Of a stretch of 64,000 nt of DNA, positions 9,352 to 24,217 are shown piece after piece. Numbering within the stretch: position 1 is the first letter of the stretch; every line of letters begins with the position of its first letter. The notes beneath the pieces are model-generated. The model saw only the letters and a program-made list of their open reading frames with translations. It ran no database searches and was not told the origin of the DNA. Source of the stretch: Smaragdicoccus niigatensis DSM 44881 = NBRC 103563 (GTDB lineage Bacteria > Actinomycetota > Actinomycetes > Mycobacteriales > Mycobacteriaceae); assembly GCF_000380645.1 (NCBI RefSeq), contig NZ_AQXZ01000017.1, forward strand, positions 434,001 to 498,000. Direction: 5' to 3'. Made by a program: the position numbers and the translations under genes.

Positions 9352-10505
9352 TCCAGGTACCTGCGCAGACCCTTGCGCGGGCTAGTCTTGTTGTCCCGGT
9401 TCGCGGTTGAGTACATGGCCTCGAGTTCGGTGACCACCGCGTCGACCGACATATGAGTCCGTACATAGGCGCGCGCTGCATTGCCTATTTCGCGAGCTTT
9501 GCCAGGGCTCTCCAGGAGCGACTTTATTGCGGACACCAAGGCGGTAGTGGTCGGCTCGATCACTATTCCTCCCCGTGAGTTTCTGACGTGTTCAGCGAGG
9601 CCGCACGAGGTGGTGATTATGACGGGTGTCGCGGCAGACATTGCTTCGAGGACGGTCATTGGGAACGGCTCGTCGACCGACGGCAGGACATAGATCGCAG
9701 AACGGCACAGCCGTTGCATCACGTTCTCAGGTGCAACGGGACCTTCAAACCGTATGTCGGGCAAGTGGCTGCCGCTAACCTCGGCTTTGAGGGATGTGAG
9801 CATTCCTTCGTCGGGCCCGGCAATGACGAAGTTCGCCTCGAGGCCTTGCTTGAGAAGGATTGCTGCTGCGTCGACGAACATGTCCGGCCGCTTGCGGGGA
9901 TGCAGTCTGGCTAAGAAGAGCACCTCCGGTTTCCCGCTAGGCGATTGTGGTTGATCGGTAGTCGCCGGGACTCCGTTGGGTAGGAATCGGAGGTTTCTCA
10001 GCTGGGCGACCGCCGCCAACTCAGTTCGCTCCGTTGATGTCAGAAAATAGACCGCTTTAGCGCTTTGCAGATTCCGGCGTGTCATCAGGAAGTCGAGGGG
10101 ACCTGCCAGCCGATTGGAGCTTCGAGCGATCATTCCGTGTGGTTGGGCAACATAAGGGACGCCTGAACGTCGAACGATGTGCGTGGCCGGCAGTGTCACG
10201 AGATCGCGTCCGAGATGAATATGTACGACGTCGAACTGTGCGACGTGCTTCCGTAGCCATCGCATAAGCGCGGGGGAACTCAGGCCCGAAAATCCAGTTC
10301 GTGTGACGACTCGACGCGCGCGAAAAAGCTGAGCGGGCACTCCGCCAACCAGAGTCGGCGGATGCGCGTAGTCATCGTATGCTCCAGCGATTACTACGTC
10401 GTGCCCCCGGTTCTGTAGCTCGCGACATTGATTTTCCGCGACTCGAATTGGGCCGCCGAAGGCACCCGATGGTGTGACAAGTGTGACGATGTGAAGGATT
10501 CGCAC
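9348..10505 (-). CDS. GT4-family glycosyltransferase
   Basis: A GT-B glycosyltransferase of about 385 aa. It starts VRILHIVTLVTPSGAFGGPIRV, where a GGPxR loop follows the first strand, and contains VLFLARLHPRKRPDMFVDAA, FVIAGPDEGM and PSVDEPFPMTVLEAMSAATP in the donor domain. I chose the GTG at 10505 because GAGG lies 7 bases upstream. A TTG at 10529 would extend it by eight residues into the acetyltransferase gene. It is the middle gene of a three-gene minus-strand operon (10510-11067, this gene, 8251-9351). Confidence 0.87.
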   Translation of the reverse strand: MRILHIVTLVTPSGAFGGPIRVAENQCRELQNRGHDVVIAGAYDDYAHPPTLVGGVPAQLFRARRVVTRTGFSGLSSPALMRWLRKHVAQFDVVHIHLGRDLVTLPATHIVRRSGVPYVAQPHGMIARSSNRLAGPLDFLMTRRNLQSAKAVYFLTSTERTELAAVAQLRNLRFLPNGVPATTDQPQSPSGKPEVLFLARLHPRKRPDMFVDAAAILLKQGLEANFVIAGPDEGMLTSLKAEVSGSHLPDIRFEGPVAPENVMQRLCRSAIYVLPSVDEPFPMTVLEAMSAATPVIITTSCGLAEHVRNSRGGIVIEPTTTALVSAIKSLLESPGKAREIGNAARAYVRTHMSVDAVVTELEAMYSTANRDNKTSPRKGLRRYLD

Positions 10506-10509
10506 TCCG

Positions 10510-11067
10510 CTACCTCGGCGGATCCGCAAGGACGAATTCGCCGCGCGCTACTGATCCAGCGGAGACGATTGCCCCAGCATGAAGGTGCGTCCCTCGAAGG
10601 ACGATCGCTCGGGCGGCAACCCAAACGCCTTGATCGATCATGATCGGCCTGTTGTCGAACTCGAACGTAGGGGACCGGCGGTCGTGGCTTCCCGTGCAGA
10701 TGAGTGCCTCCTGGGAGATGCAAGTGTCCGTGCCGATGGTGATCGACTCCAAGTTGAGGAGCCACGCGCCTTCACCGATCCAGCAGTTATCGCCGACGGC
10801 CAGCTTCCACGGCCAATGCACCCGTACTCGATGGCGAATCAGAACCCCTCTGCCGATCTGGGCACCAAAGGCCCGGAGGATCGCTGGACGAACCCGGGCC
10901 GGCAGCCACCACTTCATGAAGACGAGGTTCGAGACGCAGAACCAGAGAACCTGCACGATGACTGGTCGACCCTTGTCGTAACCGGCTCCCGTGAAGCCTG
11001 AGAGATCCCGGCGGGCTGCCTGTTCCATGCTGTGAATGGTATCCGCCGGAATTTGCGAAAACCGCAC
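10510..11067 (-). CDS. WcaF-like hexapeptide O-acetyltransferase
   Basis: An acetyltransferase of 172-185 aa related to the colanic acid acetyltransferase WcaF. Family features are the N-terminal [22 protein letters not shown] block, the aromatic FMKWWLP segment, and beta-helix repeats including [31 protein letters not shown] and [15 protein letters not shown]. It probably O-acetylates a sugar of the locus. The start is either GTG at 11067 (AGGG 7 bases upstream) or ATG at 11028. The family N-terminus fits the shorter form slightly better. It is the first gene of the minus-strand operon and is divergent from gmd. Confidence 0.85.
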
Positions 11068-11190
11068 CTCGGTTCCCTGAATGACAGAACTGACGAACGT
11101 ATGTCATCCAATTGGACGACAACGATTTTCGAGCAGTGGTGGAATCTCTCCCGGAGTTCCTCTGGGCATCTCGAAGCATGCTTTTTTCGA

Positions 11191-11196
11191 TATGAT
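11191..11196 (+). promoter_or_regulatory. candidate -10 element upstream of gmd
   Basis: TATGAT lies about 43 bases before the gmd GTG, in the divergent gap between the WcaF-like gene and gmd, directly after a T-rich run. It matches the actinobacterial -10 consensus well. No good -35 hexamer sits 16-18 bases upstream, so the call rests on the -10 box alone. Confidence 0.35.
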
Positions 11197-11238
11197 TCCC
11201 GGGTCAATCGACCGTCAGCTCGAAATTTGGGGACACAC

Positions 11239-12291
11239 GTGACGCAGGCGAAGAAGGCGTTTATCACCGGGATCACGGGCCAGGATGGCTCCTACCTTGC
11301 GGAGTTGCTTCTGGGCAAGGGCTACGAAGTCCATGGCCTCATCCGACGCGCCTCGACCTTCAATACTGCACGCATCGATCACCTCTATGTCGACAGCCAC
11401 AACCCGGACGCGCGGCTGTTCTTGCACTATGGCGACCTGTCCGACGGTGCGCGCATGGTGACGCTGCTTTCCGAGATTCGGCCGGATGAGGTTTACAACC
11501 TCGCTGCTCAGTCGCATGTTCGAGTGTCCTTCGACGAGCCAGAGCACACCGGTGACACAACTGGCGTCGGCGCGATGCGACTGCTCGAAGCCGTCCGGCT
11601 CACCGGTCTCCACTGCCGCTACTACCAAGCCTCATCTTCGGAGATGTTCGGCGCGACCCCGCCACCGCAGAACGAGGAGACTCCGTTTTACCCGCGCTCG
11701 CCATACGGCGCCGCCAAGGTCTACGCGTATTGGGTCACCAAGAACTACCGCGAGGCCTACGGCATGTTCGCGGTCAACGGCATCCTCTTCAACCACGAGT
11801 CGCCGCGACGCGGTGAAACCTTCGTGACCCGCAAGATCACGCGCGCGGTCGCCCGCATCAAGGCCGGCCGCCAGTCCGAGCTGTACATGGGTAACCTCGA
11901 CGCGATCCGTGACTGGGGTTACGCCGCCGAGTACGCCGAGGGCATGTGGCGCATGCTCCAGGCCGACGCCCCGGACGACTTCGTTCTGGCCACAGGCATC
12001 GGCATCACCGTGCGTGACTTCCTCGAAGCGTCCTTCAGCCACGCGGGCCTGGACTGGCAGAAGTACGTGAAGTTCGATCCGCGCTACTTGCGCCCGACCG
12101 AGGTCGACGCCCTCATCGGCGATGCTTCCAAGGCAGAGGAGAAGCTCGGCTGGAAGGCGACCGTCGCCCCCGACGAGCTCGCCCGCATCATGGTCGACTG
12201 CGACATCGAGGCCCTCGAGCACGGTGACGGCTACATCGACCAGCCGCGGCTCTCGGGCTGGCCGCTGCACTCGGAGCTCCGTCGTGGATGA
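11239..12291 (+). CDS. gmd: GDP-mannose 4,6-dehydratase
   Basis: Converts GDP-D-mannose to GDP-4-keto-6-deoxy-D-mannose. The 350-aa protein begins [24 protein letters not shown] (NADP-binding GxxGQDGSYL) and carries SSSEMFG, the YGAAK catalytic Tyr-Lys pair and the family signature [17 protein letters not shown] use the GTG at 11239 because TTGGGGACA precedes it and homology begins there. The open frame continues upstream to 11032 without family similarity. The stop overlaps the GTG of fcl by 8 bp, so the GDP-L-fucose pathway is translationally coupled. Confidence 0.96.
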
Positions 12292-13249
12292 CTTCGTCCC
12301 GCAACCGCTCGACCGGGACGCGACGACCTACATCGCCGGCCATCGTGGACTGGTGGGCTCCGGGATCTGGAGGAAGCTGACGGACGAAGGCTTCAACTCG
12401 CTTGTCGGCCGCTCCTCGTCGGAACTCGACCTGCGCGACCGCAACGCGGTGTTCGACTTCTTCGCCGAAACACAGCCCCACTACGTCGTACTGGCCGCCG
12501 CCAAAGTCGGTGGAATTCTGGCGAACAGCACCTACCCGCATGAGTTCCTCTCGGACAACTTGCAGATCCAGCTCAATGTCATGGACGCAGCGCTCAAGCA
12601 CGGAACTGAGCGACTTTTGTTCCTCGGCTCGTCCTGCATCTACCCGAAGTTCGCGCCGCAGCCGATTACGGAGGATGCACTCCTCACCGGGCACCTCGAG
12701 CCGACCAACGATGCGTATGCCATCGCGAAGATCGCGGGCATCCTGCAGGTTCAGGCAATTCGGCGCGAGTACGGAAAGCACTGGATCTCGGCGATGCCGA
12801 CCAACCTCTACGGCCCTGGCGACAACTTCTCACCGACCGGCTCGCATGTCTTGCCGGCGCTCATTCGTCGCTACGACGAAGCCGCGCAAAGCGGTGCCGA
12901 GACGGTCACGAACTGGGGGACCGGCGCGCCTCGGCGCGAGTTCCTCCACGTCGACGACATGGCATCGGCCTGCCTCCACCTTCTCGAGCACTACGACGGA
13001 CCTCAGCAGGTCAACGTCGGCACTGGCACCGATGTGACCATCGCCGAGATCGCCGACGTGATCGCCGACGTCGTCGGATTCGAAGGTGAAACCCATTGGG
13101 ACACAAGCAAGCCGGACGGAACCCCGCAGAAGCTGCTGGATGTCAGCAAGCTCGGAGAGGCTGGTTGGAAGGCTTCGATCGGGCTTCGTGAGGGAATCGA
13201 GTCGACGGTCGAGTGGTATCGGCGGCACGTGGGCGAAGTGCGCGCTTAA
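12284..13249 (+). CDS. fcl: GDP-L-fucose synthase
   Basis: Performs the 3,5-epimerisation and 4-reduction of GDP-4-keto-6-deoxymannose to GDP-L-fucose, using NADPH. The 321-aa protein has the N-terminal [17 protein letters not shown] nucleotide-binding motif, [37 protein letters not shown] (Tyr-Lys pair) and [21 protein letters not shown], all diagnostic of Fcl/WcaG. The GTG at 12284 overlaps the gmd stop. The frame is open further upstream inside gmd, but the extra sequence has no similarity. Fucose is therefore a likely component of one polysaccharide here. Confidence 0.96.
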
Positions 13250-13279
13250 TGCAGCGCCAAGCTTGCGTTCGAGGTCGAC

Positions 13280-14458
13280 GTGCACGTTAGTCAAAGGCAG
13301 CCTGTTCGCGACGAAGTCAGCGCTCTTATTCATGGGCTGAAAGTCCTGATAAGTGATCCGACGGCGAGATGGCTGGTGCCTGCCGAGCTTCGCAACTCTC
13401 GGCTTGTGGCGGTCGCGCAGCGTCACATGGTCTTGCCCTTCTTGCGGCACAGTATCGACCGGATCGACGCGGACGACTCCACACTCAATGAGCTGCGCGC
13501 GAGTGGCACAAGCGTGGTTCTTCTCGCGCTGAATCTGATCGGGGTCTTTGCCGAGACCTACGGACTATTGGCGGACGCTGGGCTCCGCGTCCTAGCCGTC
13601 AAAGGCCCGGCCTTGGCTGTTCAGGCGTACGGAAACACCACCGCTCGAGGTGTTGGGGACATCGATCTACTCGTGTCGCCGGACGACTTTCCGACTGCGC
13701 TGGACATTCTGAGCTCAGCGGGCTGGCAGCCAAACCCGAGCGAGCCGCTCCCTTCCGACAGTTGGGTCTGGCGCTATCGATTGGCGACGTATTACGAGAC
13801 GACACTCGAGCGGTCAGGCGAAGCTGTGGATCTTCACTGGCGACTTTCGCCATTGGTCGGTGACCTGCCTGTATTTGATGAGCTGTGGCGGCAACGAGTC
13901 GAAGTCGACCTCGCGGGATCCTCGATTTCGACGCTCGGACTTGAGCACGCGCTGCAGCATTCTTGTAGCCACGCGGCGCGAGATGAATGGGCCTATCTCC
14001 GCAGCTCTCTGGACATCGCACTACTGAGTCAACGGTCTGACCGTCAGCCGAGTGGACTGAATCGACGGCAACGAGCGAGTCTTTCTGTGGCACGGGCTTT
14101 ACTCGTGGAGCCTCCAGAGCGGACCGCTCCGTCGCTACGTCGAGCGTTGCGGTTAGCTTCGGTGAATCAACGTGATCCAGATCCGCGCGCCGATCGCGGT
14201 TATCGGCCGCTCTCGTCGTTTGCAAAACTCATCCGTCGTATTCAGTTGGGTCCATCGCCGAAGAACGTCCTACGGCTTGTCGCCGCCGTGATAGTTCCGA
14301 GCGACCGTTTGACAGGGCGGGAAAACGAAGGACCTGTTCGTGGGTTCCTTGGTGCGGCGGGCACGCTCGGAATCGAGCGGATGAGGCGATTGCCGATGCG
14401 TCCGGCCAATCGCGACGATTCTCAGCGCATAGAACACAATGCGCAGGACCTGACGTGA
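13280..14458 (+). CDS. nucleotidyltransferase-fold protein (PF14907-type) of the RiPP cluster
   Basis: A 392-aa protein with a minimal nucleotidyltransferase core at about residues 110-135: KGPALAVQAYGNTTARGVGDIDLLV, where G-x-x-D-I-D-L-L supplies the two metal-binding Asp residues. This matches the uncharacterised nucleotidyltransferase family PF14907. Members are known beside HPr-kinase-like genes in some lasso-peptide clusters, with no settled role. The GTG start has GAGG 5 bases upstream. The TGA overlaps the GTG of the kinase gene (GTGA). It begins only 30 bp after fcl, so read-through from gmd-fcl is possible. A role in modifying the phosphorylated peptide is an inference. Confidence 0.78.
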   Translation: MHVSQRQPVRDEVSALIHGLKVLISDPTARWLVPAELRNSRLVAVAQRHMVLPFLRHSIDRIDADDSTLNELRASGTSVVLLALNLIGVFAETYGLLADAGLRVLAVKGPALAVQAYGNTTARGVGDIDLLVSPDDFPTALDILSSAGWQPNPSEPLPSDSWVWRYRLATYYETTLERSGEAVDLHWRLSPLVGDLPVFDELWRQRVEVDLAGSSISTLGLEHALQHSCSHAARDEWAYLRSSLDIALLSQRSDRQPSGLNRRQRASLSVARALLVEPPERTAPSLRRALRLASVNQRDPDPRADRGYRPLSSFAKLIRRIQLGPSPKNVLRLVAAVIVPSDRLTGRENEGPVRGFLGAAGTLGIERMRRLPMRPANRDDSQRIEHNAQDLT

Positions 14459-15426
14459 CCGACTTGCGGGCTTACAGTGGCCACGGACTTGTTGTTGCGT
14501 CCGACATGCAGCTCAATTTGCGCGAGATTGGTGGGACGGCACTGCCAGACGTCACGATCGAATCTGGCGATATCAGGTCGGTGCCACGAATGAACCCCGA
14601 CGCCGACGTGCTACTCGAACGTGTTTGGCCCGAGGACGGCGGTTTTCAAGCGCTCGAGCGTGGAGCCGAGGGACTTCGGCTTGTCCTGTCGGACATCGCT
14701 GAATTGACAGGCGACCAGGAGTTTCGCCGGATCGTCGCCCATCCCGCAGACGAGACCAAACGCGAACTCCTTCCAGTCATAGCCGAGGGCATCGTTCTTT
14801 CCCTCCATCTCTACCTCGCAGGGCATCCGGTTCTTCATGCAAGCGCGGTCGATGTCGGGGGACAGGCGCTTGCTTTCGTGGGTGCCTCGGGAATGGGCAA
14901 GTCCACGATGGCGACGATTCTGGCGATGGCAGGAGCCAAGCTCGTCACCGACGACGTGCTTCGTATCCATTTAGGGGATGTGGTTGAGGTCTTCCCCGGT
15001 GCCACAGGAACGCGACTACGGCAAGGCGCGAGGCAGCTGCTAGGCGGAGCAGGAAGCGTTCCGGTTCGAAAGACGGCCGACGACCGGACTATGGCTTTAC
15101 TGAGCAGATCAGAGGCAGAGATTCTCCCACTGTCCGCGATCGCGATTCCAACTCCGGACCGAACGTCTTCAAGGGTCACCGCTCGCCGCCTTACCGGAGT
15201 TGAGGCTTTGAAGACCTTGCTCAGCTACCCGAGAATGATCGGTTGGCTTGACAAAGACGTTCTCTCGGAACAGTTCCAGGTGTCCGCAGAGTTGGTGCGC
15301 CGCACGCCGATCTGGGACGTGTCGATCCCGTGGGGACCACCATTCGACCAAAACCTTGCCGAGGAATTGTGTCGGGTGATCGACGTTGAATTCTCGGCGC
15401 AATCCAGCAAAGGAGTCAGGGGATGA
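14455..15426 (+). CDS. HPr-kinase-like serine kinase of the RiPP cluster
   Basis: A 323-aa P-loop kinase related to HPr kinase/phosphorylase. LHASAV at about 127-132 precedes a Walker A motif GASGMGKST at 143-151, followed by LVTDDVLRIHLGD at about 162, the usual order in this family. It lacks the N-terminal domain of classical HprK, and no HPr gene is nearby. Kinases of this type in lasso clusters, such as that of paeninodin, phosphorylate the C-terminal Ser of the precursor. The precursor at 19171-19290 ends in Ser, which supports the same role here. It is translationally coupled on both sides (GTGA upstream, ATGA downstream). Confidence 0.82.
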   Translation: MTDLRAYSGHGLVVASDMQLNLREIGGTALPDVTIESGDIRSVPRMNPDADVLLERVWPEDGGFQALERGAEGLRLVLSDIAELTGDQEFRRIVAHPADETKRELLPVIAEGIVLSLHLYLAGHPVLHASAVDVGGQALAFVGASGMGKSTMATILAMAGAKLVTDDVLRIHLGDVVEVFPGATGTRLRQGARQLLGGAGSVPVRKTADDRTMALLSRSEAEILPLSAIAIPTPDRTSSRVTARRLTGVEALKTLLSYPRMIGWLDKDVLSEQFQVSAELVRRTPIWDVSIPWGPPFDQNLAEELCRVIDVEFSAQSSKGVRG

Positions 15427-15686
15427 GTATTCGTCTTCGTCCGACCGATGTTGCCCTCACCGAACTCGACGGCGAAGTCGTCCTTCTCGATCTGCAGAGT
15501 TCGCGGTATCTCTCAGCGTCGGGTACGGGGGTTGTTCTGGTGCGCCTGCTTCAGGAAGGCTCCTCAGAGGAGCAGTTGGTATCCGCCCTGACGGCTCGGT
15601 TCGATGTGGATGTGCCGACGGCGACCACAGACGTGAGGGCATTCCTGAACGATCTGCGGTCCCGCGGCTTGCTCGAAGAGTCATGA
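15423..15686 (+). CDS. PqqD-like RiPP recognition element (lasso B1-type)
   Basis: A small 87-aa protein of the PqqD fold, the RiPP recognition element that binds leader peptides. Typical features are MSIRLRPTDVALTELDGEVVLLDL, then YLSASGTGVVLVRLLQEG, and a C-terminal helix FLNDLRSRGLLEES. In lasso systems the stand-alone B1 protein delivers the precursor to the B2 peptidase, binding the YxxP region of the leader. The ATG overlaps the kinase stop. The exporter gene begins 18 bp later. Confidence 0.88.
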   Translation: MSIRLRPTDVALTELDGEVVLLDLQSSRYLSASGTGVVLVRLLQEGSSEEQLVSALTARFDVDVPTATTDVRAFLNDLRSRGLLEES

Positions 15687-15704
15687 CGCATTGAACCTCT
15701 TGCT

Positions 15705-17495
15705 ATGAATGGGATGTTCGCGCGCTACGCGAATCGACTTTCCGCGTTGAGAGACACGGCGACGGCGGTAAAGGTACTTTGGCGCGCTGACCGCGTTCGA
15801 ACCGCGCTCGGCGCTTCCCTGCAGATCGCACAAGTCGTCTCGACCCTGCTGATCATTGTTGCAAGCAAGGCGGTGATCGAGGCGATCATGAGCGCGGGCC
15901 GCAGTGGCTCGATCTCCGCGCTTGTCGTTCCTCTGGTTGCGCTTACCGTGCTGACCGCAGTAACCAGTTCGGCTGCGATCCTCGAAGCGCAACATGATCG
16001 GATCCTCGGCCACAAAGTGGAGCAACAAATCTGGGACCGACTGCTCAAGGTAACGACCAGAGTAGATCTGGACCGGTTCGAGTCGCCACGGTTCGCTGAG
16101 CATCTCGATCGCGTAGTGACCAACGCGATGGACAAACCCGTCGATGCGGCGCGGTCGCTGTTCGACTTCATTGGCTCGCTTCTGGGCTGCGTGACAGTCG
16201 GCTTTGCCGTCCTGGTGATTGAACCTCTCTTGGTTCCGCCCCTATTGCTGGTGGCGATTCCCTCCGCCTATTTCGCGGTACGTTCCAGCAATGCGGAGTA
16301 CCTCTACGCGACCGACGTAACGCCGACCCGTCGTCGCCTGTACTACCTCCGATTGCTCATGACCCAAAAACCTCACGCTGCTGAGTTGCGTGCCTTTGAA
16401 TCGGCGCGATACCTGGCTTCACGCCATTACGACCTCGAGGCGACTTTGCTGACGAAGTTGCGAAGAGTGGTCGCGACTCGCCAGCGTTACGGCATTGCTG
16501 GCGGAGTGCTCGCCGGGCTGGGTTTGGCCCTCACGCTGGGAACAGCGATGCTCCTCATCAATAGCGGGTCCCTCTCCATCGCAGCGGCTGGCTCATCTTT
16601 TGTGGCCGCGCGATACTTGGCGAACAATGTCGGTCGACTTCTTTCCGACCTCGGAAGGCTCACCGAGGCTCTGCCGTTCATCCGTGATTTCGAAATCTTC
16701 GAGCGGACTTACGCAACCAGCGTCGCCGAGGTGTCCAAACACGATTTCGACGACAAAATACGGCTCGAGGGCGTCAATTATCGCTATCCGGGTTCAATGA
16801 CCTTGGCGCTGAAGCAGGTCGACATCGAAATTCGGAAGGGCCAGGTCGTCGCCCTCGTTGGTGAGAATGGTTCAGGAAAGACGACCCTTGCCAAGGTTGT
16901 TGCTGGCCTCTATCTCTCCGAGAGCGGTCGATACACGTGGGATGGTGTCGAGCTGGCAGACCCTCGAACCGCGCGATCTGCGATCGCCTGTCTCTTCCAA
17001 GACTTCGACCGCTTCAACTTCTCCATGCGAGAAAACATTGCTATCGGCGCGACCGACCGACCTGTCAGCGACGATGACGTTGTTCGTGTTGCGCACCGCG
17101 CCGGATTGGCCGACACCTTGGACCGATTACCGGATGGCCTAAATACGCAACTCGGCAATGTCTTCGATGAGGGCGTCGATATGTCGGGAGGCCAGTGGCA
17201 GCGAATCGGCCTTGCACGGACCCTTCTAAGGGGATCGCCATTAGTTGTGATGGATGAGCCAACAGCAGCGCTCGACCCAAGAGCCGAGTATGAGCTCTTC
17301 TCCGATGTCCGTTTGACTCTCGAGGGGCGGTCCGCATTGCTGATCACACACCGCTTTGCCAGTGCGCGACTCGCAGACTTCATATACGTGATGAGGGATG
17401 GCGAAATTGTGGAAGCCGGTTCTCACGAACAATTGATGGCACATGACGGCTTGTACAGCGAGCTGTTCAGCCTTCAGTCGGCAGGCTACGTGTGA
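15705..17495 (+). CDS. ABC transporter (TMD-NBD fusion), probable RiPP exporter
   Basis: A 596-aa ABC half-transporter with an N-terminal six-helix membrane domain (about residues 25-310) and a C-terminal ATPase. Seen directly are Walker A GENGSGKTT at about 386-394, signature MSGGQWQR at about 492, Walker B LVVMDEPTAALD and the H-loop LITHRFASARLADFIYVM. In lasso clusters such D proteins export the mature peptide and give self-immunity. It follows B1 by 18 bp. Its last 29 bases overlap the 3' end of the minus-strand B2 gene. Confidence 0.9.
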   Translation: MNGMFARYANRLSALRDTATAVKVLWRADRVRTALGASLQIAQVVSTLLIIVASKAVIEAIMSAGRSGSISALVVPLVALTVLTAVTSSAAILEAQHDRILGHKVEQQIWDRLLKVTTRVDLDRFESPRFAEHLDRVVTNAMDKPVDAARSLFDFIGSLLGCVTVGFAVLVIEPLLVPPLLLVAIPSAYFAVRSSNAEYLYATDVTPTRRRLYYLRLLMTQKPHAAELRAFESARYLASRHYDLEATLLTKLRRVVATRQRYGIAGGVLAGLGLALTLGTAMLLINSGSLSIAAAGSSFVAARYLANNVGRLLSDLGRLTEALPFIRDFEIFERTYATSVAEVSKHDFDDKIRLEGVNYRYPGSMTLALKQVDIEIRKGQVVALVGENGSGKTTLAKVVAGLYLSESGRYTWDGVELADPRTARSAIACLFQDFDRFNFSMRENIAIGATDRPVSDDDVVRVAHRAGLADTLDRLPDGLNTQLGNVFDEGVDMSGGQWQRIGLARTLLRGSPLVVMDEPTAALDPRAEYELFSDVRLTLEGRSALLITHRFASARLADFIYVMRDGEIVEAGSHEQLMAHDGLYSELFSLQSAGYV

Positions 17496-17892
17496 GCGTC
17501 ACGAAGTCTGCCGACATGGGATCGATTGACTGTCCGCTGATTTCCAACCATGAATGTGCCAGGAAGGCTCCGCGAGCGTCGCGGGTGACACCGATTCGGA
17601 CAACCGGTTCCAAGTCCCGCAGTTGTACTGCGAGCACGAGACAGCGACGTAGGCAGGTGTCACCCCAGGGCCATCGCTGCGTTGTCCAGTTCGTCAAGTT
17701 CACAGCCCGGACAAATCGTCCGGGAATCTCGACCTCGGACATGGATGCCGGCCGTGACGCCGACATGTCGAGTCTGATTCTCAACAGCCGGCAAACGGAT
17801 GGAAGCTTGGTGATCCTGAGTCCGATTTCGACGGCCAGCAGCCGAGCGAGAATTCGCGCTGCTAGCGGGACGAGCCTAATTTTGCGTATCAA
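17467..17892 (-). CDS. lasso peptide B2-type transglutaminase-like leader peptidase
   Basis: A 141-aa protein matching the lasso B2 family (transglutaminase-like cysteine peptidase, PF13471 type), which removes the leader peptide. The presumed catalytic residues are Cys80 in WGDTCLRRCLVL, His113 in AHSWLEI and Asp124 in SIDP. The N-terminal 60 residues are basic and amphipathic, as is usual. The TTG start at 17892 has GAGGA about 9 bases upstream. It lies on the strand opposite to B1, the exporter and the cyclase, converging on the exporter and diverging from the cyclase across 81 bp. The split orientation is unusual, but the motif match is good. Confidence 0.83.
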   Translation of the reverse strand: MIRKIRLVPLAARILARLLAVEIGLRITKLPSVCRLLRIRLDMSASRPASMSEVEIPGRFVRAVNLTNWTTQRWPWGDTCLRRCLVLAVQLRDLEPVVRIGVTRDARGAFLAHSWLEISGQSIDPMSADFVTLTRSLPTEG

Positions 17893-17973
17893 GCAGTTGG
17901 TTCCTCGTTCAGATCGACAGGATTCAGACTACCGCGCACCGTCGAACGGGGCCCTAGCTGGAAATAGGGACAA

Positions 17974-19161
17974 GTGACATTCGAACTGCCGCCCGGCGAG
18001 CTGAACCTTTCGCCGCTCCTACCTGATGAAATCCTTTTCGGGTTTCCCGACGGGGTCGATCATCGACGTGCCGAGGAATTGGAGCGAATCCGGGGAACCC
18101 GTACCGAACGTCCCGAGCACGTCCTCTCTGACATTCTTGCTGGCGCGCTGTCGCGCCCACCATGTGTGGTCGCCTTCTCGGGTGGGCGGGACTCGTCGCT
18201 GATCCTTGCTTACGCTGCACGGACTGCTCGAGAACACGGACTGGAACCACCTGTCGCGCTGACCCATCGATATGCGTCCGACGACGTTGAAGCAAACGAG
18301 GACCAATGGCAGGAGCGGGTAGTCGGGCACCTGCAAGGCCTCGGTCTTCGGTTCGAGTGGAATAAGGTCGAGATCGATCAGGAGTTGAATGTCCTCGCTC
18401 CGATGACCACCAGCGTCCTCAAACGAGTAGGGCGCGTGCTCTTTCCGCCAGCGATCAGTGCAACGGTGTTCAACGCAGCGCTGGTTCCCGGGGGGACAGT
18501 CGTCACCGGGGAGTTCGGAGACGAACTTTTTTGGACCTATCGGTCAACGGCAATTAGGCAAGCGCTTCGGGGTAACGCGCGCGGTGTTGGACGGCGACGC
18601 GTTCTGAATTCAATCAACCACCGAATTTTTCCCCGAATTTCCGTCGGAATTGCTGGCGAGAATTTTCCATGGCTGAAACAAGCTCCGCGGCGAAGGTTCG
18701 AAGAAATGCTCCGGCGCGATCTGCGCGAACGCTTCTGGTGGTCAGCGGGGGTTCGCGAGACGCTCAGTTCACGGTATGTCGCGCTAATGGATGAAGCCTG
18801 CCGCGGTGTCTCGGGGCTCTTCGGGACTGGACTTGTCGAACCGCTCAAACAGACTGAATTTGTTCATTCGTGGACTCAGCACAGTCCGAAGTTTGGTCTG
18901 ACCAGGACTGAGTCCATGCGATTGCTTGCGGGTGATCTGCTTCCCGACGACGTTCTCGCCCGAACCTCGAAAGCGGCGTTTGGCGAATCGCGCTTCGGCG
19001 AGGGCGTTCGGCAGTTCGCCGAGAACTGGTCAGGGCACGGACTGAACACCGACGATGTCGATGTCGAGGTGCTGCGCGAGACATGGTTGCAAGGGGAGTG
19101 CTCGCCTCAGTCAGTGATGCTGCTTCACGCAGCTTGGTTGAACGACAACGTGAACAACTAG
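17974..19161 (+). CDS. short asparagine-synthetase-like cyclase (lasso C-type)
   Basis: A 395-aa ATP-dependent amide-forming enzyme related to the synthetase domain of asparagine synthetase B. The PP-loop FSGGRDSS lies at residues 68-75, and the second family motif GEFGDELFW at about 179-187. In lasso pathways the C protein adenylates an Asp/Glu side chain and closes the macrolactam with the N-terminal amine. Known lasso cyclases are usually 500-600 aa with an N-terminal glutaminase-like domain. Here the PP-loop is only 67 residues from the start, so that domain is essentially missing. GTG start with AGGGACAA upstream. Divergent from B2 and convergent with the precursor gene. Confidence 0.82.
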   Translation: MTFELPPGELNLSPLLPDEILFGFPDGVDHRRAEELERIRGTRTERPEHVLSDILAGALSRPPCVVAFSGGRDSSLILAYAARTAREHGLEPPVALTHRYASDDVEANEDQWQERVVGHLQGLGLRFEWNKVEIDQELNVLAPMTTSVLKRVGRVLFPPAISATVFNAALVPGGTVVTGEFGDELFWTYRSTAIRQALRGNARGVGRRRVLNSINHRIFPRISVGIAGENFPWLKQAPRRRFEEMLRRDLRERFWWSAGVRETLSSRYVALMDEACRGVSGLFGTGLVEPLKQTEFVHSWTQHSPKFGLTRTESMRLLAGDLLPDDVLARTSKAAFGESRFGEGVRQFAENWSGHGLNTDDVDVEVLRETWLQGECSPQSVMLLHAAWLNDNVNN

Positions 19162-19170
19162 CGCATTCTC

Positions 19171-19290
19171 TTACGACAGTCGCTGGTTGGATGCGTCCTG
19201 CTTGCTTCCCAACTTGGGCTTCGGAGCAAGCGTCAGCTCACGCACGGAACCCAGGTCAACGAGCTTCGGAGCCGAGTAGGTTTCGCGCAT
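19171..19290 (-). CDS. lasso-type RiPP precursor peptide
   Basis: A 39-aa peptide with a lasso-style leader: Y5-x-x-P8 (YSAPKLVDLG), L13-G14, then VRELTL with Thr20. If Thr20 is the usual penultimate leader residue, cleavage after Leu21 gives the 18-residue core APKPKLGSKQDASNQRLS. The core has a single acidic residue, at position 11 (Asp32), and ends in Ser39. A ring of the usual nine residues would need Lys24 as residue 1. The ATG is preceded by GGGAG 7 bases upstream. The frame is open further upstream to 19353 without leader features. It lies 9 bp beyond the cyclase stop, on the opposite strand, with its own AT-rich upstream region. Confidence 0.85.
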   Translation of the reverse strand: MRETYSAPKLVDLGSVRELTLAPKPKLGSKQDASNQRLS

Positions 19291-19321
19291 TGGATTTCTC
19301 CCAAACTTCTTTGCGGCTGAA

Positions 19322-19336
19322 ACTGAAGTTTTCAGT
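19322..19336. promoter_or_regulatory. inverted repeat in the precursor 5' region
   Basis: ACTGAA-GTT-TTCAGT, 6-bp arms with a 3-base spacer, lies 32 bases upstream of the precursor ATG. It could be a small RNA hairpin in the leader transcript or an operator half of a pair with the site at 19384-19399. No regulator gene is found nearby. Confidence 0.35.
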
Positions 19337-19383
19337 CGACAAACGTTCAACAAATTGTTCTCGCCGAAACGATAGCTGCTTGA

Positions 19384-19399
19384 ACTCGAAACTTCGAGT
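19384..19399. promoter_or_regulatory. palindromic operator-like site upstream of the precursor
   Basis: ACTCGAA-AC-TTCGAGT, with 7-bp perfect arms and a 2-base spacer, lies about 95 bases upstream of the precursor start. Its outer ACT..GAA/TTC..AGT pattern resembles the repeat at 19322-19336, suggesting two copies of a related site. The region between them is A+T-rich and is the likely promoter of the minus-strand precursor gene. Confidence 0.35.
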
Positions 19400-19577
19400 C
19401 GGCAAGGCCAAAGTCATGCGGTTGAAGGACACGGTTCCGACCTGCGGAAATCCAGTGTGGTCGTCCTTTCAACAGTTGATCTTTGGGTAGCAGATGTCAC
19501 AATGGCCGAGTGTCTTCCGCCCCTACCGCTGCCGTGATCGCCGTCCGTGATCGCCCCGACGGACGGGGACGTTAGCC

Positions 19578-20186
19578 ATTAGCGCGCGCCGTCGAACTCA
19601 GCTCATCTGGTTGGTCCTCATCAGCGTGGGATTGCTTGTCGCACTTGCTATTGCAGTCAATCTCGACGGTCTGGTCGTTCATGCAGACTGGCGGATCGGG
19701 CTCAAGGTCAAAGCGCACATGACGCCGCGGCGAACGCACCTCGCCCAGCTCATCTTCAGCGCCGGCGACCCGGAGGTGCTGATTCCCCTCACGGTCGTGG
19801 CGGGCGTGAGCATTGCCGTTTGGCGGAAATCACTTCTGCGGGGTGCCTTGATCCCCACGGCTGTGGGGGTGGCAAGTGCCGTGAGCGGTGCCCTCAAAGC
19901 CCTACTGCCCTCGGTGCGTCCGGCCGGATGGGCTGATCAGATGCATTCTTTCCCTTCTACGCACACAACGGCGACTGCCACGCTTTTCGGCGTCGTCGCC
20001 GTTTGCGCATTCCTCCACTGGAAACAGCAGAATCAGGCGCTTGTATTTGCCGCGTTAGGTGCATTCGCGATGGCGGCGGCGTGCGTTCTCTACCGCGCCC
20101 ACTGGCCTTCCGACGTCCTCGGCGGCCTGCTGATCGCAACCGCCACGGTGGCAACCGTTCGGCTTGTATTGCTCCGCCACCGCTGA
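19578..20186 (+). CDS. PAP2-family phosphatase
   Basis: A membrane phosphatase of about 190-200 aa with the three PAP2 motifs: KALLPSVRP, SFPSTHTTA and YRAHWPSDVLGG. Five to six hydrophobic segments fit undecaprenyl-pyrophosphate or lipid phosphatases, so it could recycle the carrier lipid used by the surrounding glycan pathways. The start is unclear. The first conventional start is TTG at 19611, inside the first membrane helix. An ATT at 19578 would add a basic SARRRTQLIW segment more typical of a cytoplasmic N-terminus and has GGGAC upstream. An in-frame TGA at 19548 sets the limit. Confidence 0.82.
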   Translation: MSARRRTQLIWLVLISVGLLVALAIAVNLDGLVVHADWRIGLKVKAHMTPRRTHLAQLIFSAGDPEVLIPLTVVAGVSIAVWRKSLLRGALIPTAVGVASAVSGALKALLPSVRPAGWADQMHSFPSTHTTATATLFGVVAVCAFLHWKQQNQALVFAALGAFAMAAACVLYRAHWPSDVLGGLLIATATVATVRLVLLRHR

Positions 20187-20275
20187 CCCGAATTGGGCAT
20201 GACCTCCAGTAGTCAATCCGTCGAGTGGCAGAATGTCCGGGTGCCTTCAAGCCTCCACGATGACGTGATCGCCGC

Positions 20276-21220
20276 ATGACCGACGTGACCACGCTGCTCG
20301 CTGTCGCGTTCTTCGTCGGCATCGTCGTCGGGATGACTGGCATGGGCGGCGGGGCCCTCATGACGCCCGCGCTCATCTTCCTTGGCATCCCGCCAACGGC
20401 GGCGGTGGCCAACGACCTCGTCGCGGCCGCGGTCAACAAGTCGACCGGCGCGATCGTCCACTGGCGTGCAGGGTCCGCACATCTCAAGCTGACGGCGTGC
20501 CTTATCGCTGGCTCGGTACCCACGGCTTTCGCTGGGGCATTCATCATCGAAGCCTTCGGTGAATCGGCCAAACAGCAGCACTTCGTCAAATCCGCGATCG
20601 GCTGCACGCTGATCCTCGCCGCCGGTGCGTACGCATTCCGCGCGCTCGTTCGCATGCGCCGGGCGATCGCCGGCCACCAGGTCGAAAGCGATCACATTGA
20701 GATCCGCGTGGTGCCGACCGTACTGCTCGGCGCGTTCGGCGGCTTGATCGTCGGCGTGACGTCGGTCGGCTCGGGCTCGATCATCATGGTCTTGCTCATG
20801 GTCATGTACCCGATGCTGTCGCCGGTCCGTCTCGTCGGCACCGACCTCGTGCAGGCAGTCCCGCTCGTGGCTTCGGCCGCGCTGAGCCACATCCTGGTGA
20901 GCGGCGTCGACTGGAACATCCTGCTTCCGCTCATCGCAGGTGGCACGCCCGGCACGTTCCTGGGCGCACGCCTCGCGGGTTCCGTCTCGCAGTCGATGGT
21001 CCGTCGCGCCCTCGTGATCGTGCTCGTCATCACCGGCGTCGCGATGCTCACGAAGTCGCCGTATGTCGTCGGGGGAGTCGCGATTGCGCTCATCACCCTC
21101 GGACCGATCGCGTGGGCATTCGTGCGCCGCGCGCATGGCCAGAAGCCGTTCCAGCGGTTCGGGATTCTGTCGCCCACGCCAGAAGTGTTCGATTCCCCAG
21201 CTGCTTCCAAAAGTTCATGA
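20276..21220 (+). CDS. TauE/SafE-family permease
   Basis: A 314-aa integral membrane protein of the sulfite exporter TauE/SafE family (DUF81). It starts MTDVTTLLAVAFFVGIVVGMTGMGGGALMTP with the conserved GxGGG loop in the first repeat. The second half repeats the fold (GAFGGLIVGVTSVGSGSIIM). About eight membrane segments. Family members move sulfur-containing or other small anions. Proximity to the cysD/NC/Q genes is suggestive, but these lie on the other strand. The ATG start is clear. Confidence 0.87.
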   Translation: MTDVTTLLAVAFFVGIVVGMTGMGGGALMTPALIFLGIPPTAAVANDLVAAAVNKSTGAIVHWRAGSAHLKLTACLIAGSVPTAFAGAFIIEAFGESAKQQHFVKSAIGCTLILAAGAYAFRALVRMRRAIAGHQVESDHIEIRVVPTVLLGAFGGLIVGVTSVGSGSIIMVLLMVMYPMLSPVRLVGTDLVQAVPLVASAALSHILVSGVDWNILLPLIAGGTPGTFLGARLAGSVSQSMVRRALVIVLVITGVAMLTKSPYVVGGVAIALITLGPIAWAFVRRAHGQKPFQRFGILSPTPEVFDSPAASKSS

Positions 21221-21257
21221 AATTCCGTGATGAGCACCCTCTACCACCTCAAACTCC

Positions 21258-21309
21258 GATGGATTGCCGTGCAACGCACCTGATCAGGTATGCGCTGCGG
21301 CAATCGATC
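21258..21309. repeat. degenerate palindromic repeat, left copy
   Basis: An imperfect inverted repeat centred on CCTGATCAGG (axis between 21283 and 21284), with outer arms GATTGCCG and CGGCAATC. The core GCACCTGATCAGGT and these outer arms are shared with the perfect palindrome at 22301-22358. The inner arms contain several mismatches. The two copies bracket the gene at 21400-22299. It lies between two genes on the same strand, so a simple convergent terminator is less likely for this copy. Confidence 0.7.
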
Positions 21310-21399
21310 CGAGTTTGAAGGCGCTACAACACGCAAGATCCAGCACACTCGGGCGCGACGACCTGGCGAAACGATGTGTAACCAGCCACTATCGCCGTC

Positions 21400-22299
21400 G
21401 TGGAACCGATCTTTCGCCGTCAGGCTCTCCGCGACGGCACGTCCGATGAACAGCTACAGGCGGCTGTGGCCAAAGGGGAAAGGGTGCGCCTGCGGAACGG
21501 CGCGTATGCCCTCGCGTGCGAGTTCGGCGAACTGTTCGCTGAGGACAAGCATCGCATCATGGTTGTTGCATCGATCCCGCGTCTGCACAAGGATTCGGTC
21601 GTCAGCCATGTTTCCGCGGCAGTGCTCCATGGGCTGCCGCTCTGGCGCACCGACATCGGCCGGGTGTACGTCACGCGGCCCGGCAGTACGACGTGCGAGA
21701 CGACCCGGGTGAAGTTCATCGGACAGCCGTTGTCCTCGGAAGAGATTGTGTCGATCGACGGTATCCGGGTGACATCGCTGAATCGGACGCTCCTCGATGT
21801 GGTGCGGACGCTGCCATTTGAGCAGGCCGTCGTCGTAGGAGATGCTGCCCTGCGTCGTGGCGCGCAACTTCCGACCAACTTGGACCGCCGACGTGGCAAC
21901 GAACAGGCGCGTCGCACACTTGAGTTCCTCGATGGTCGATCCGAGAGCGTAGGTGAGTCGAGGAGCCGAGTGCTGATCGACCGAAAATCGATCACGAAGC
22001 CGCTGGTACAGGTCACGATCCTGGATCATTCGGGCGGATTCATCGGTCGAGTCGACCTGTGCTGGCCCGAGTACGGACTTGTCGGGGAGTTCGACGGCGA
22101 CGACAAGTACCGCTCGTCCGACGCGCCCAACGTCGTAGGTCTCGAGAAGGCGCGCGAAGGACGCCTGCGTGACGCGGGCTGGAACGTCGTGCGCTGGGGC
22201 TGGAAAGACCTCGACGAGCCAGCGGACATGATTCGTAGACTCGGGAAGAACCTCACAAGTCGGGTTGATGCTCCTTCGCCATGGTTCCAGCGGCTCTGA
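21400..22299 (+). CDS. AbiEi-like / DUF559-type protein
   Basis: A 299-aa protein. The N-terminus resembles the AbiEi antitoxin winged-helix region (FRRQALRDGTSDEQLQAAVAKGERVRLRNGAYAL), followed by VVSHVSAAVLHGLPLW. The C-terminus carries a DUF559/Vsr-like nuclease-fold signature, YGLVGEFDGDDKYR with E-x-D and K, and RLRDAGWNVVRWGWKDL. Such genes are common in actinobacteria and are usually annotated as AbiEi-family antitoxin-domain proteins, mostly without an AbiEii toxin. None is adjacent here. GTG start. The stop is 1 base before a 58-bp palindrome. It could be part of a defence or mobile cassette, but no function can be assigned. Confidence 0.75.
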   Translation: MEPIFRRQALRDGTSDEQLQAAVAKGERVRLRNGAYALACEFGELFAEDKHRIMVVASIPRLHKDSVVSHVSAAVLHGLPLWRTDIGRVYVTRPGSTTCETTRVKFIGQPLSSEEIVSIDGIRVTSLNRTLLDVVRTLPFEQAVVVGDAALRRGAQLPTNLDRRRGNEQARRTLEFLDGRSESVGESRSRVLIDRKSITKPLVQVTILDHSGGFIGRVDLCWPEYGLVGEFDGDDKYRSSDAPNVVGLEKAREGRLRDAGWNVVRWGWKDLDEPADMIRRLGKNLTSRVDAPSPWFQRL

Positions 22300-22300
22300 C

Positions 22301-22358
22301 CCCGATCGATTGCCGTATTACGCACCTGATCAGGTGCGTAATACGGCAATCGATCGGG
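22301..22358. repeat. perfect 58-bp palindrome, right copy
   Basis: Two 29-base arms with no spacer pair perfectly around the centre between 22329 and 22330 (CCTGATCAGG). It starts 1 base after the AbiEi-like stop, between convergent genes, so it may act as a bidirectional terminator. However, it lacks a loop and a T-tract, and a related degraded copy lies at 21258-21309. I therefore class it as a repeat element. Confidence 0.9.
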
Positions 22359-22405
22359 ACGAGGGGCAGGGGGTCGATCCACTGGTCCGGACCACCGGAA
22401 CGGAC

Positions 22406-24217
22406 CTACCGAGGCTTGCACTCCGGCACATCGAACTCGACCTTCGGAGTGTCTGTCAACGGCTGAACCTGCAAAACCGGCTTGCCGGCCGCGCTCGGCT
22501 CGTCGAGCTTGAACACGAACTCGGTCGATTTGCCGGGTCCCAGCACCACGACCGTGGCTTGCACCGGATGCCCGAGTTCATTGAACGGTGTCATGAAGAC
22601 CGGCACACCGTCCTTCGTTGCCGAAACGGCCTTCGATCCCGGCGTCTCGTAGAGCATCACCGTCACCCGGTTGGTGCCGGGCGCGCCCTTGACGTTGAAG
22701 ATCGGCGTTCCGTTGGGGTTGAGCAACGGTTGAATCTGCAGGTAGTCGGGGTATGTCGGGAGCTTGGGCGCGGTGTTCGTGAGCTTGAACCTCACCTCGG
22801 TCTGGCGCCGATCACCTGTGCACGACTGCCCGGTGTACGAGATCTCGCGCGACAGGTAGAAGTCGAGCTTGCTGCCCGAACCGCTGTTCAGCACCACGGA
22901 CGAGAACGGGGCGGCAGTCTGCGGGAGAGCGTGGGCGATGGGGCTCGTCTCGAGCACCTTCTGCTCTTTGTCGTTGGCGCTCCAGACCTGGATGCGACCT
23001 TCCTCGATCGCCCGGCCCACCGCTTTCAACATCGCGCCCTTGTTGAGGCTCGACGTCAGACGATCGACGACGGCTTTCTGGATCTCCTGGAGGTAGGCCT
23101 TGCGTGCGCCCTGCGGACCCGGTGCCCGCGTCGGGTACTTGAAGTACGCGGTGTTCATCGTCAGCGTGGCGACGTCTTTGCCGGTGATCGTCTCGCCGCT
23201 CGACAGAGTCACGGGACCCGTCGCGTCGAGGATGTAGCCGAGGGCGATCGGGTCGGTCGCGATCACGCCGTCGACCTTCTTGCCGAATGTCGTCTGGTAG
23301 ACCCCGGCCCACAGCTCACCGGCGTACGGGAAATGCGGGCTGAAGTTCGAGTCCCGCCAGAAACCCATCTTGTTCCAGTTGCCCCAGTTCGCGTTCCAGT
23401 CCTTGCCGAGGTCGGCCGGGCCGGGCTCGGGGCGAATCATGTGACCAGGTGACGTGAGGTTCTCGTTGCTGCCCGATGCGGTCTGCGTGAGATGACCACC
23501 CTCGGCGTGTAGAACGGCCCAACCACCGAGCAGGCCGCCCGTTCCGCGGGCTTCGGCCGGGGTCTGGAATGCGAGCATGTAGTCGCGCGGACCTTCGCCA
23601 CCGAGCATCGAGGGTGCGATCTGCGCGCCCATCTGCGCGAGCTTCATCGTCGTGTTCAGCTCGTCGGTCTTGTCCTGCAGTTGGCGAACCGCGTTGTTGA
23701 CCAACCAGAGCGGCGAGTCAGTGCGGATCTCCTGCGCTCGAGCGTCGATCTTCGCCGCCGATTCCGCCGCCTTGTTGAGGGACGGGAGCATCGGCGTCAG
23801 ACGCGTGATGTCGAGGTTCAAGGCGCCGGAGTTGCCGCCAAGAACTGACTGGGCCGCTTTGGCCACCGGTGGGACAACCTGGGTGGCGACATCGCGGATG
23901 ACGACCGCCGAATCGCCGATCGCTTCGAACGGGCGCCCCACCCACGGAATGCTCGCGAGGGCCTGCCACGGCGACGATTCAGTCCAGAAGAGCGCGTCTT
24001 TCGCCTTGCCCTGGGCGGTGTCGAGGTGGTCGTTCGCCGACGCCATATCCCGACTCGTCAACGAGTCCTGAGCTGCCTCGAGCTCGGCCTTCACCCGGCT
24101 GAGGTCGTAGCCCGCGATGCCCACGAAGAGCACGAAACCGCCGAAGACGGCGATCGCAATGCCGGCAAGGACGCGCTTGAACAATCGTCGGCGTGGAGGC
24201 GCGTCGCGTTCCGACAA
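22406..24217 (-). CDS. DUF4012 domain-containing membrane-anchored protein
   Basis: A 603-aa protein with one N-terminal membrane helix (about residues 14-34, VLAGIAIAVFGGFVLFVGIAGY) and a long extracytoplasmic part matching DUF4012 (AFQTPAEARGTGGLLGGWAVL, GVIATDPIALGYILDATGPV). DUF4012 proteins are frequent in actinobacterial polysaccharide loci, but their function is not established. The TTG start has AAAGGA 6 bases upstream. It is the last gene of the minus-strand cysD-cysNC-cysQ run, 30 bp after cysQ. A short helical repeat region follows the membrane anchor. Confidence 0.88.
   Translation of the reverse strand: MSERDAPPRRRLFKRVLAGIAIAVFGGFVLFVGIAGYDLSRVKAELEAAQDSLTSRDMASANDHLDTAQGKAKDALFWTESSPWQALASIPWVGRPFEAIGDSAVVIRDVATQVVPPVAKAAQSVLGGNSGALNLDITRLTPMLPSLNKAAESAAKIDARAQEIRTDSPLWLVNNAVRQLQDKTDELNTTMKLAQMGAQIAPSMLGGEGPRDYMLAFQTPAEARGTGGLLGGWAVLHAEGGHLTQTASGSNENLTSPGHMIRPEPGPADLGKDWNANWGNWNKMGFWRDSNFSPHFPYAGELWAGVYQTTFGKKVDGVIATDPIALGYILDATGPVTLSSGETITGKDVATLTMNTAYFKYPTRAPGPQGARKAYLQEIQKAVVDRLTSSLNKGAMLKAVGRAIEEGRIQVWSANDKEQKVLETSPIAHALPQTAAPFSSVVLNSGSGSKLDFYLSREISYTGQSCTGDRRQTEVRFKLTNTAPKLPTYPDYLQIQPLLNPNGTPIFNVKGAPGTNRVTVMLYETPGSKAVSATKDGVPVFMTPFNELGHPVQATVVVLGPGKSTEFVFKLDEPSAAGKPVLQVQPLTDTPKVEFDVPECKPR

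Follow-up and report, generated by a model that had tools for sequence, protein, structure and literature searches.

A stretch of 64,000 nucleotides from Smaragdicoccus niigatensis DSM 44881 (contig NZ_AQXZ01000017.1, positions 434,001 to 498,000; hereafter the window, whose own numbering is used throughout) carries at 13280-19290 a gene block that is almost certainly a paeninodin/pseudomycoidin-type cluster for a lasso-like ribosomally synthesized and post-translationally modified peptide (RiPP), lying in a surface-polysaccharide locus. The new element is the core of its precursor peptide, not the gene set. A lasso core is recognized by an acid at core position 7 to 9 (PMC10368454; here and below, statements on published systems follow the available parts of the cited papers), and the core encoded in the window has neither Asp nor Glu at these positions: its sole acid is Asp11, and Lys5 stands six residues earlier. 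By the acid-at-7-9 rule the peptide does not qualify as a lasso peptide, though in all likelihood it behaves like one. The Lys-x5-Asp spacing (K-x5-D) recurs in the cores of many relatives, and we propose, with the chances for and against in balance, that a branch of short actinobacterial cyclases joins the side chain of Lys to an adenylated Asp, which would give a ring of 26 or 29 atoms with a free N-terminal arm of 0 to 8 residues and a C-terminal tail, and that in the window cluster, with a core like one having a doubled Pro-Lys before the ring, an acid-at-9 enzyme was independently turned to this use.

Lys and Asp in the precursor cores

How is the core delimited? The leader of the window precursor has Tyr(-17), Pro(-14), Leu(-12) and Thr(-2) in the numbering of PMC10368454, and therefore the core is taken to be APKPKLGSKQDASNQRLS. 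It counts as a K-x5-D core, with Lys six residues before the only acid and no acid at 7-9, and it ends in Ser, the residue used by kinases of this type. The DNA repeat CCGAAG CCCAAG encodes Pro2-Lys3-Pro4-Lys5, and with one repeat unit fewer the acid would come to position 9 and the Lys to position 3; as to the history of the core, this is only a hint.

For the comparison, a scan with a cyclase alignment was used, whose best 80 of 121 relatives represent 75 distinct loci, and 95 fetched loci together with the window came to 86 distinct loci by cyclase sequence. The leader pattern found 104 precursors in these 86 loci, which were thinned to 56 non-redundant cores. K-x5-D is present in 23 of the 56, whereas 2000 shuffles of the first 17 residues of each core gave 2.2 on average and never more than 8, in a test made post hoc on a pattern that had already been noticed. 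The other Lys-to-Asp distances from 1 to 10 are each found in 0 to 6 cores, and where Asp lies at positions 10-15 (n=30), Lys stands six residues before it in 17 cases, while any other offset accounts for 0-4.

The pattern follows the cyclases. Two cyclase trees were made, a quick one and a careful one, the latter with eight rows dropped for long branches or membership of a distant side group, eight rows added, and 107 thinned to 78; in both, the acid-at-9 lineages, a lineage with acid at 8 and a Lys group come out apart. When the cores are grouped by the careful tree alone, leaving out the window and setting aside the locus L067, the Lys group in its 23-row form has K-x5-D in 20/22 cores and K-x6-D in one more, while K-x5-D is found in 0/5, 0/7 and 1/15 cores of the three acid-at-9 groups, which have acid at 9 in 5/5, 7/7 and 12/15, respectively (loci with two cyclases are counted in both their groups, so that the first two of these groups share loci). 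The acid-at-8 group has its acid at 8 in 5/5 cores and K-x5-D in none of the five. An earlier hand grouping, made with the precursors in view except for the 23-row group, is repeated by the tree: the Lys group fits the rule in 22/24 cores by hand, and by the tree alone in 21/22 with L067 aside or 21/23 if the adjacent core of L067 is counted. In the Lys group the position of the Asp, counted from the cut, varies between 7 and 15, and 14/22 cores have no acid at 7-9. The Lys-Asp pair is thus the natural candidate for the bond, since it is the only fixed pair in these cores. By arithmetic, moreover, a ring closed over K-x5-D has 26 atoms and one over K-x6-D 29, the same as N-terminal rings to Glu8 (26) and Glu9 (29).

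The rule is clearest in loci where one cyclase and two precursors were found. In L065, a contig of only 7 kb, Asp is at 10 in one core and at 13 in the other, and in L135 at 11 and 7, with one cyclase found in each locus and a Lys-to-Asp spacing of 6 in 4/4 cores; in the corresponding acid-at-9 loci (L070, L072, L075, L076, L082, L089 and L092) both cores have the acid at 9. Likewise, the sister cyclases of L097 and L133 are accompanied by identical leaders and by Asp at 15 and 13, respectively, with the spacing of 6 in both. The L097 core (Rhodococcus sp. IEGM 1381) has an acid at 8 as well as Lys9-x5-Asp15, and that of L133 the Lys-Asp pair only. In L077, L090 and the second precursor of L135, Lys occupies position 1 or 2 and Asp position 7 or 8, an arrangement that fits an N-terminal ring and a Lys ring alike.

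The proposed ring closure and its alternatives

For the K-x5-D group we lean towards a ring closed by the Lys side chain, as the sequence statistics suggest. For the window peptide a ring between the side chains of Lys5 and Asp11 stands at about even, if anything just under, because its cyclase lies among acid-at-9 enzymes and its core is rich in Lys; the explanation taken as a whole, this ring included, is tentative and falls on the doubtful side of even.

Several points weigh against such a ring. The window cyclase is outside the Lys group: it is sister to that of L132 (support 100/99) inside the acid-at-9 lineages (99/83 and 96/89), the L132 core has acid at 9 and no Lys six residues before Asp, and acid at 9 is also found in 5/5 of the other cores counted in this lineage. 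Lys occupies positions 3, 5 and 9 of the window core, three of its first ten residues, so that each of these side chains competes with the N-terminus as candidate nucleophile, and 30% of shuffles put a Lys at position 5. The Lys group itself has a support of 83 in its 26-row form in the quick tree and a weak 43/86 in its 23-row form in the careful tree, and we do not claim that it is a single clade. Cyclases without a firm place in the tree have cores (n=13) of all kinds, five with K-x5-D, one with K-x6-D and seven with acid at 8 or 9. Six of the 22 Lys-group cores could also form the ordinary ring, having an acid at 8 or 9 besides. Two loci do not fit: in L067, which has two cyclases of different groups and one precursor each, the core types are swapped, so that the core beside the Lys-group cyclase breaks the rule and a K-x6-D core lies beside the cyclase of acid-at-9 lineage, and L107 is the other misfit. 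Because B2, the leader peptidase, is present in 20/21 Lys-group loci, a free N-terminus would be available too. The kinase stays below its Pfam cut-off (Table 1). Finally, later searches brought no new Lys-group locus with a recognizable precursor. In the loci with a newly found cyclase, acid at 9 was seen in 16/16 leader-bearing precursors (judged by eye, several being near-copies), one of which, in L182, also has Lys six residues before Asp; four pattern matches in these loci were dropped for want of a credible leader, L162 and L173 gave no credible precursor, and L189 repeats L107.

What else could produce a fixed Lys-Asp spacing, or a core such as that of the window? One answer, unlikely though it survives best, keeps to ordinary chemistry and shifts the cut. 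B2 would cleave two residues later in the window precursor, leaving KPKLGSKQD as a 9-residue ring, and at a variable distance in the K-x5-D group, where Lys would be the conserved third residue of the ring. All rings would then have 9 residues, as in the sister lineages, and in L043, L044, L045, L099 and L112 the Asp is in fact at 9, where the canonical cut suffices. Nevertheless, Leu or Gln still prevails after Thr(-2), in 21/24 Lys-group and 23/28 acid-at-9 cores by the hand grouping, which makes the leader cut look the same in both groups; with this unchanged context and B2 in nearly all Lys-group loci, leader removal appears to go on. Furthermore, the residue that would come first after a shifted cut is highly variable (I, L, F, W, N, T or K), and a Lys six residues before Asp is rare in the acid-at-9 groups, as counted above.

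A somewhat smaller chance is given to a linear peptide or a decaying cluster, in which the acceptor position has been lost and phosphorylation and decoration remain, as in the linear polyphosphorylated peptides of Bacilli. The lack of an acid at 7-9 in the window core would be explained in this way, linear relatives without a cyclase exist (PMC13381572), a second genome of the genus, G001, yields no match to the cyclase, and a decayed cyclase piece is present in G331. However, the seven frames of the window cluster are open, with their active-site residues kept and no sign of decay, and the cyclase gene is retained, unlike in the linear systems.

An enlarged N-terminal macrolactam, of 11 residues (34 atoms) in the window peptide and up to 15 residues in relatives, is improbable. 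The machinery of lasso peptides, in which the N-terminal amine closes the ring and the tail is threaded through it, is at hand, and the leader geometry places the predicted N-terminus at Ala1. Yet the characterized rings have 7, 8 or 9 residues closed by the N-terminal amine, and altering the size by a single residue reportedly lowers the yield (PMC13352647); closure by Lys5 is favoured because the N-terminal alternative needs an 11-residue ring, and the fixed Lys-Asp spacing would be left without a reason. Least probable of all, the cyclase might merely recognize K-x5-D, or need it as a turn motif, with Lys not cross-linked. Sequence cannot separate a cross-link from a contact, and a Gly is frequent in between (KxxGxxD); the rigid spacing beside a varying N-terminal length and the matching ring sizes speak against this reading.

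The gene block and its predicted pathway

The initial annotation had placed seven gene types of a complete lasso-type cluster in one block of about 6 kb, and all seven are there (Table 1), as are Cys80, His113 and Asp124 of B2, FSGGRDSS of the cyclase and the 39 aa of the precursor. Its word "complete" holds for the lasso gene set and not for the core, whose acid is misplaced as described above. B2 and the precursor are encoded on the minus strand and the other five genes on the plus strand; the end of the B2 gene overlaps that of the exporter gene on the opposite strand. A plus-strand open reading frame (ORF) over B2, 17492-17977, was rejected, having no Pfam family and one chance match in NCBIfam (E 0.13).

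Table 1. Features of the cluster in the window, with strand and supporting matches
Feature	Position	Strand	Details
Nucleotidyltransferase-fold protein, PF14907 NTP_transf_5, PsmN/BsfN-like	13280..14458	+	392 aa; Pfam 140.9 bits, cut-off 31.2
HprK-like peptide kinase	14455..15426	+	323 aa; Hpr_kinase_C 26.8 bits, under cut-off 33.3
PqqD-like B1, leader-binding RiPP recognition element (RRE)	15423..15686	+	87 aa; PF05402 64.3 bits; NF033530 63.8 bits, under cut-off 70
ATP-binding cassette (ABC) exporter, MsbA-like	15705..17495	+	596 aa; Pfam match over cut-off
B2 leader peptidase	17467..17892	-	141 aa; TTG start; NF033537 53.8 bits, cut-off 33
Short lasso-type cyclase	17974..19161	+	395 aa; PF00733 35.7 bits, cut-off 21; motif FSGGRDSS
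Precursor, leader MRETYSAPKLVDLGSVRELTL and core APKPKLGSKQDASNQRLS	19171..19290	-	39 aa; NF033521 29.1 bits, cut-off 19
Predicted core APKPKLGSKQDASNQRLS	19174..19227	-	Lys5-x5-Asp11, C-terminal Ser18

The enzymes keep the residues by which such families are known (in the alignments that follow, the window is included). The nucleotidyltransferase has the motifs GVGDIDLL at 124 and VDLHW at 183, with D127 and D129 in 62/63 and D184 in 57/63 aligned sequences, Asp residues that we take to be catalytic from what is known of the fold; by sequence it gave only chance matches in the Protein Data Bank (PDB). In the kinase, the His (H128), the P-loop GASGMGKS at 143 and the Asp-Asp motif (D166-D167) are the elements reported for lasso kinases (PMC10368454), and H128, G143, G148, K149, S150, D166 and D167 are each found in 75-78 of 79 aligned sequences; its PDB matches by sequence are weak ones to HPr kinase (E 0.007). 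Cys80 and His113 of B2 are in 74/74 aligned sequences, Asp124 is present in a column below the 85% listing level, and a sequence search of the PDB found no relatives of B2. A Shine-Dalgarno-like GGGAG lies 7 bases 5' of the precursor ATG.

Characterized lasso cyclases are known as longer enzymes with an N-terminal domain. In the window cyclase the PP-loop Asn-synthetase domain is the only one, an N-terminal glutaminase-like domain not being found in it, and the short cyclases of its group have 376-412 aa (frames without lengthening by an upstream start), with SGGxDSS invariant in the alignment. By sequence its PDB matches are Asn synthetase and beta-lactam synthetase. An AlphaFold2 model (predicted local distance difference test, pLDDT, 84.9) has as its best Foldseek matches TsnB9, Asn synthetase, and carbapenam and beta-lactam synthetases, with template modelling (TM) scores of 0.34-0.53 by model length.

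From these families we infer the following life of the peptide. B1 would bind the YxxPxL leader, the HprK-like kinase may phosphorylate a Ser, most likely the C-terminal one, and B2 would cut behind Leu(-1), which follows Thr(-2). Next, the short Asn-synthetase-like enzyme is predicted to adenylate the core Asp and close the macrolactam, in the window peptide more likely than not by an N-terminal closure a ring of 26 atoms from the Lys5 side chain to Asp11; the phosphate might be decorated by the PF14907 protein, with a sugar if the analogy holds, and the ABC protein would export the product. The product is probably phosphorylated and further derivatized, in keeping with what had been suggested from the gene content; the C-terminal Ser is present and the kinase and PF14907 genes are conserved. 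By the hand grouping, a C-terminal Ser is found in 27/28 acid-at-9 cores and 17/24 Lys-group cores.

Is such a gene set kept elsewhere? A gene was scored as present wherever in a stretch it was matched by a profile built up from the corresponding window protein. In the 64 stretches of at least 15 kb, window included, the kinase is found in 61, B2 in 59, B1 and the ABC protein in 58 each, the nucleotidyltransferase in 55 and a leader-bearing precursor in 61, and the full set of seven in 49. The cluster is thus more than chance, because relatives of the cyclase have the same neighbours and such a precursor, and the outcomes that the initial annotation had named as speaking against it, unrelated families for B2, B1 and cyclase or an unconserved set or precursor, did not occur. 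The hosts include Prauserella, Amycolatopsis, Nocardioides, Blastococcus, Micromonospora, Jiangella, Rhodococcus and others, as well as one metagenome-assembled genome of Gemmatimonadetes. The distribution is patchy: a cyclase relative is found in 2/61 relatives, 30/397 genomes of the order and 6/401 of the family, counting the window's own genome and, in the latter two, a few weak or broken matches. Pieces of the window flanks are scattered over several contigs of G001. A scan of genome contigs with the single cyclase protein gave no relatives, and none were found on plasmids or in viral contigs at the limits used. A short cyclase piece with two internal stop codons is located at G331:C9:118642-118869 (in L136), in the genus of the nearest relative.

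The nearest relatives of the window genes are the two-cyclase loci of Prauserella and Amycolatopsis L053, L055 and L058 (B2 51%, kinase 41-43%) and L132 of genome G544 (cyclase 41%, B1 55%), whose cores, unlike that of the window, have acid at 9. Two short cyclases about 5 kb apart are seen in L053, L055, L056, L058, L061, L078, L081, L035 and L036, and in these Prauserella/Amycolatopsis-type loci two precursors (of the types GQSQGSRLDADF.. and ANLFGTKPDNLTW..) are accompanied by one B2, one kinase and one exporter as far as found. As in the window, such clusters frequently have genes on both strands. In the Lys-group loci L079 of Blastococcus aurantiacus, L088, L099, L045, L049, L112, L083, L087 and L065, the kinase gene is inserted between the cyclase and precursor genes and has the opposite orientation.

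Polysaccharide setting and known systems

The block lies between gmd-fcl and cell-envelope genes, as first described: GDP-mannose dehydratase and epimerase genes are upstream, with glycosyltransferases farther upstream, and genes for a PAP2 phosphatase and a DUF4012 protein are downstream. Next to the cluster, the frames 20213-21136 (minus), 21400-22299 (plus) and 22265-23452 (plus) have no Pfam match at 1e-5; some of the frames in 20213-23452 may be spurious, and 22265-23452 overlaps the DUF4012 gene on the opposite strand. Between 5 and 20 kb, 14 of the 15 kilobases have 55-61% G+C, and every one of the 44 kilobases further downstream exceeds 60%, most of them with 62-68%; the low G+C of 5000-20000 fits an exchanged polysaccharide island, as expected. 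Lasso clusters with a kinase and a nucleotidyltransferase in capsular polysaccharide loci have already been described for Bacilli (PMC13381572). Among 84 flanking ORFs of relatives, hand-picked from 165 listed and coming from 26 of 45 loci without a control set, there are eight initiating sugar transferases, seven glycosyl transferases of group 1 and three O-antigen ligases. Because of these sugar-transferase types, Actinobacteria seem to join Bacilli in this link, and the adjacency of such clusters to polysaccharide genes, shared by Bacilli and some Actinobacteria, points to a role at the cell surface.

The gene set is not new, since kinase and nucleotidyltransferase are known together from pseudomycoidin and Bsf. 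Pseudomycoidin (psm) of Bacillus pseudomycoides shares with the window the lasso machinery, the HprK-like kinase and the nucleotidyltransferase, and its phosphate and the one or two hexoses that the phospho-Ser carries depend on PsmK and PsmN (PMC9266682, PMC8498205). The chemistry of PF14907 proteins, first described here as unknown, is thus not wholly so, PsmN being needed for the hexose. That system, however, is from Bacilli, with a product known to be phosphorylated and hexose-modified, whereas the window cluster is actinobacterial, with a short cyclase and no acid at 7-9. Paeninodin of Paenibacillus dendritiformis, a characterized class II lasso peptide, is similar in its kinase and C-terminal Ser, which PadeK phosphorylates in the precursor, and the available part of the source mentions no nucleotidyltransferase for this peptide (PMC9266682). 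The Bsf cluster of Bradymonas sediminis likewise has a kinase, a predicted nucleotidyltransferase and YxxPxL at -17 to -12, and differs in Ile(-2), a predicted Gly1-Asp8 ring and phosphorylation of Ser3 by BsfK (PMC10368454). The capsular-locus clusters of Bacilli, both lasso and linear polyphosphorylated ones, have an HprK-like kinase, an NTP transferase, an MsbA-like transporter and an RRE in polysaccharide loci as the window does; unlike it, they encode a SipW-like peptidase, and a cyclase is absent from the linear clusters (PMC13381572). No report of a Lys-closed lasso-type ring was found in the open-access literature; subscription papers were mostly outside this search, and a report may exist.

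What would a Lys-closed ring mean? If K-x5-D is read correctly, the rule of an acid at 7-9 mispredicts the ring of an actinobacterial group. Lasso-type enzymes would then make a ring from side chain to side chain, in which the N-terminus is not needed, and this would be of use in peptide engineering. The lasso machinery, if so, makes two kinds of macrolactam.

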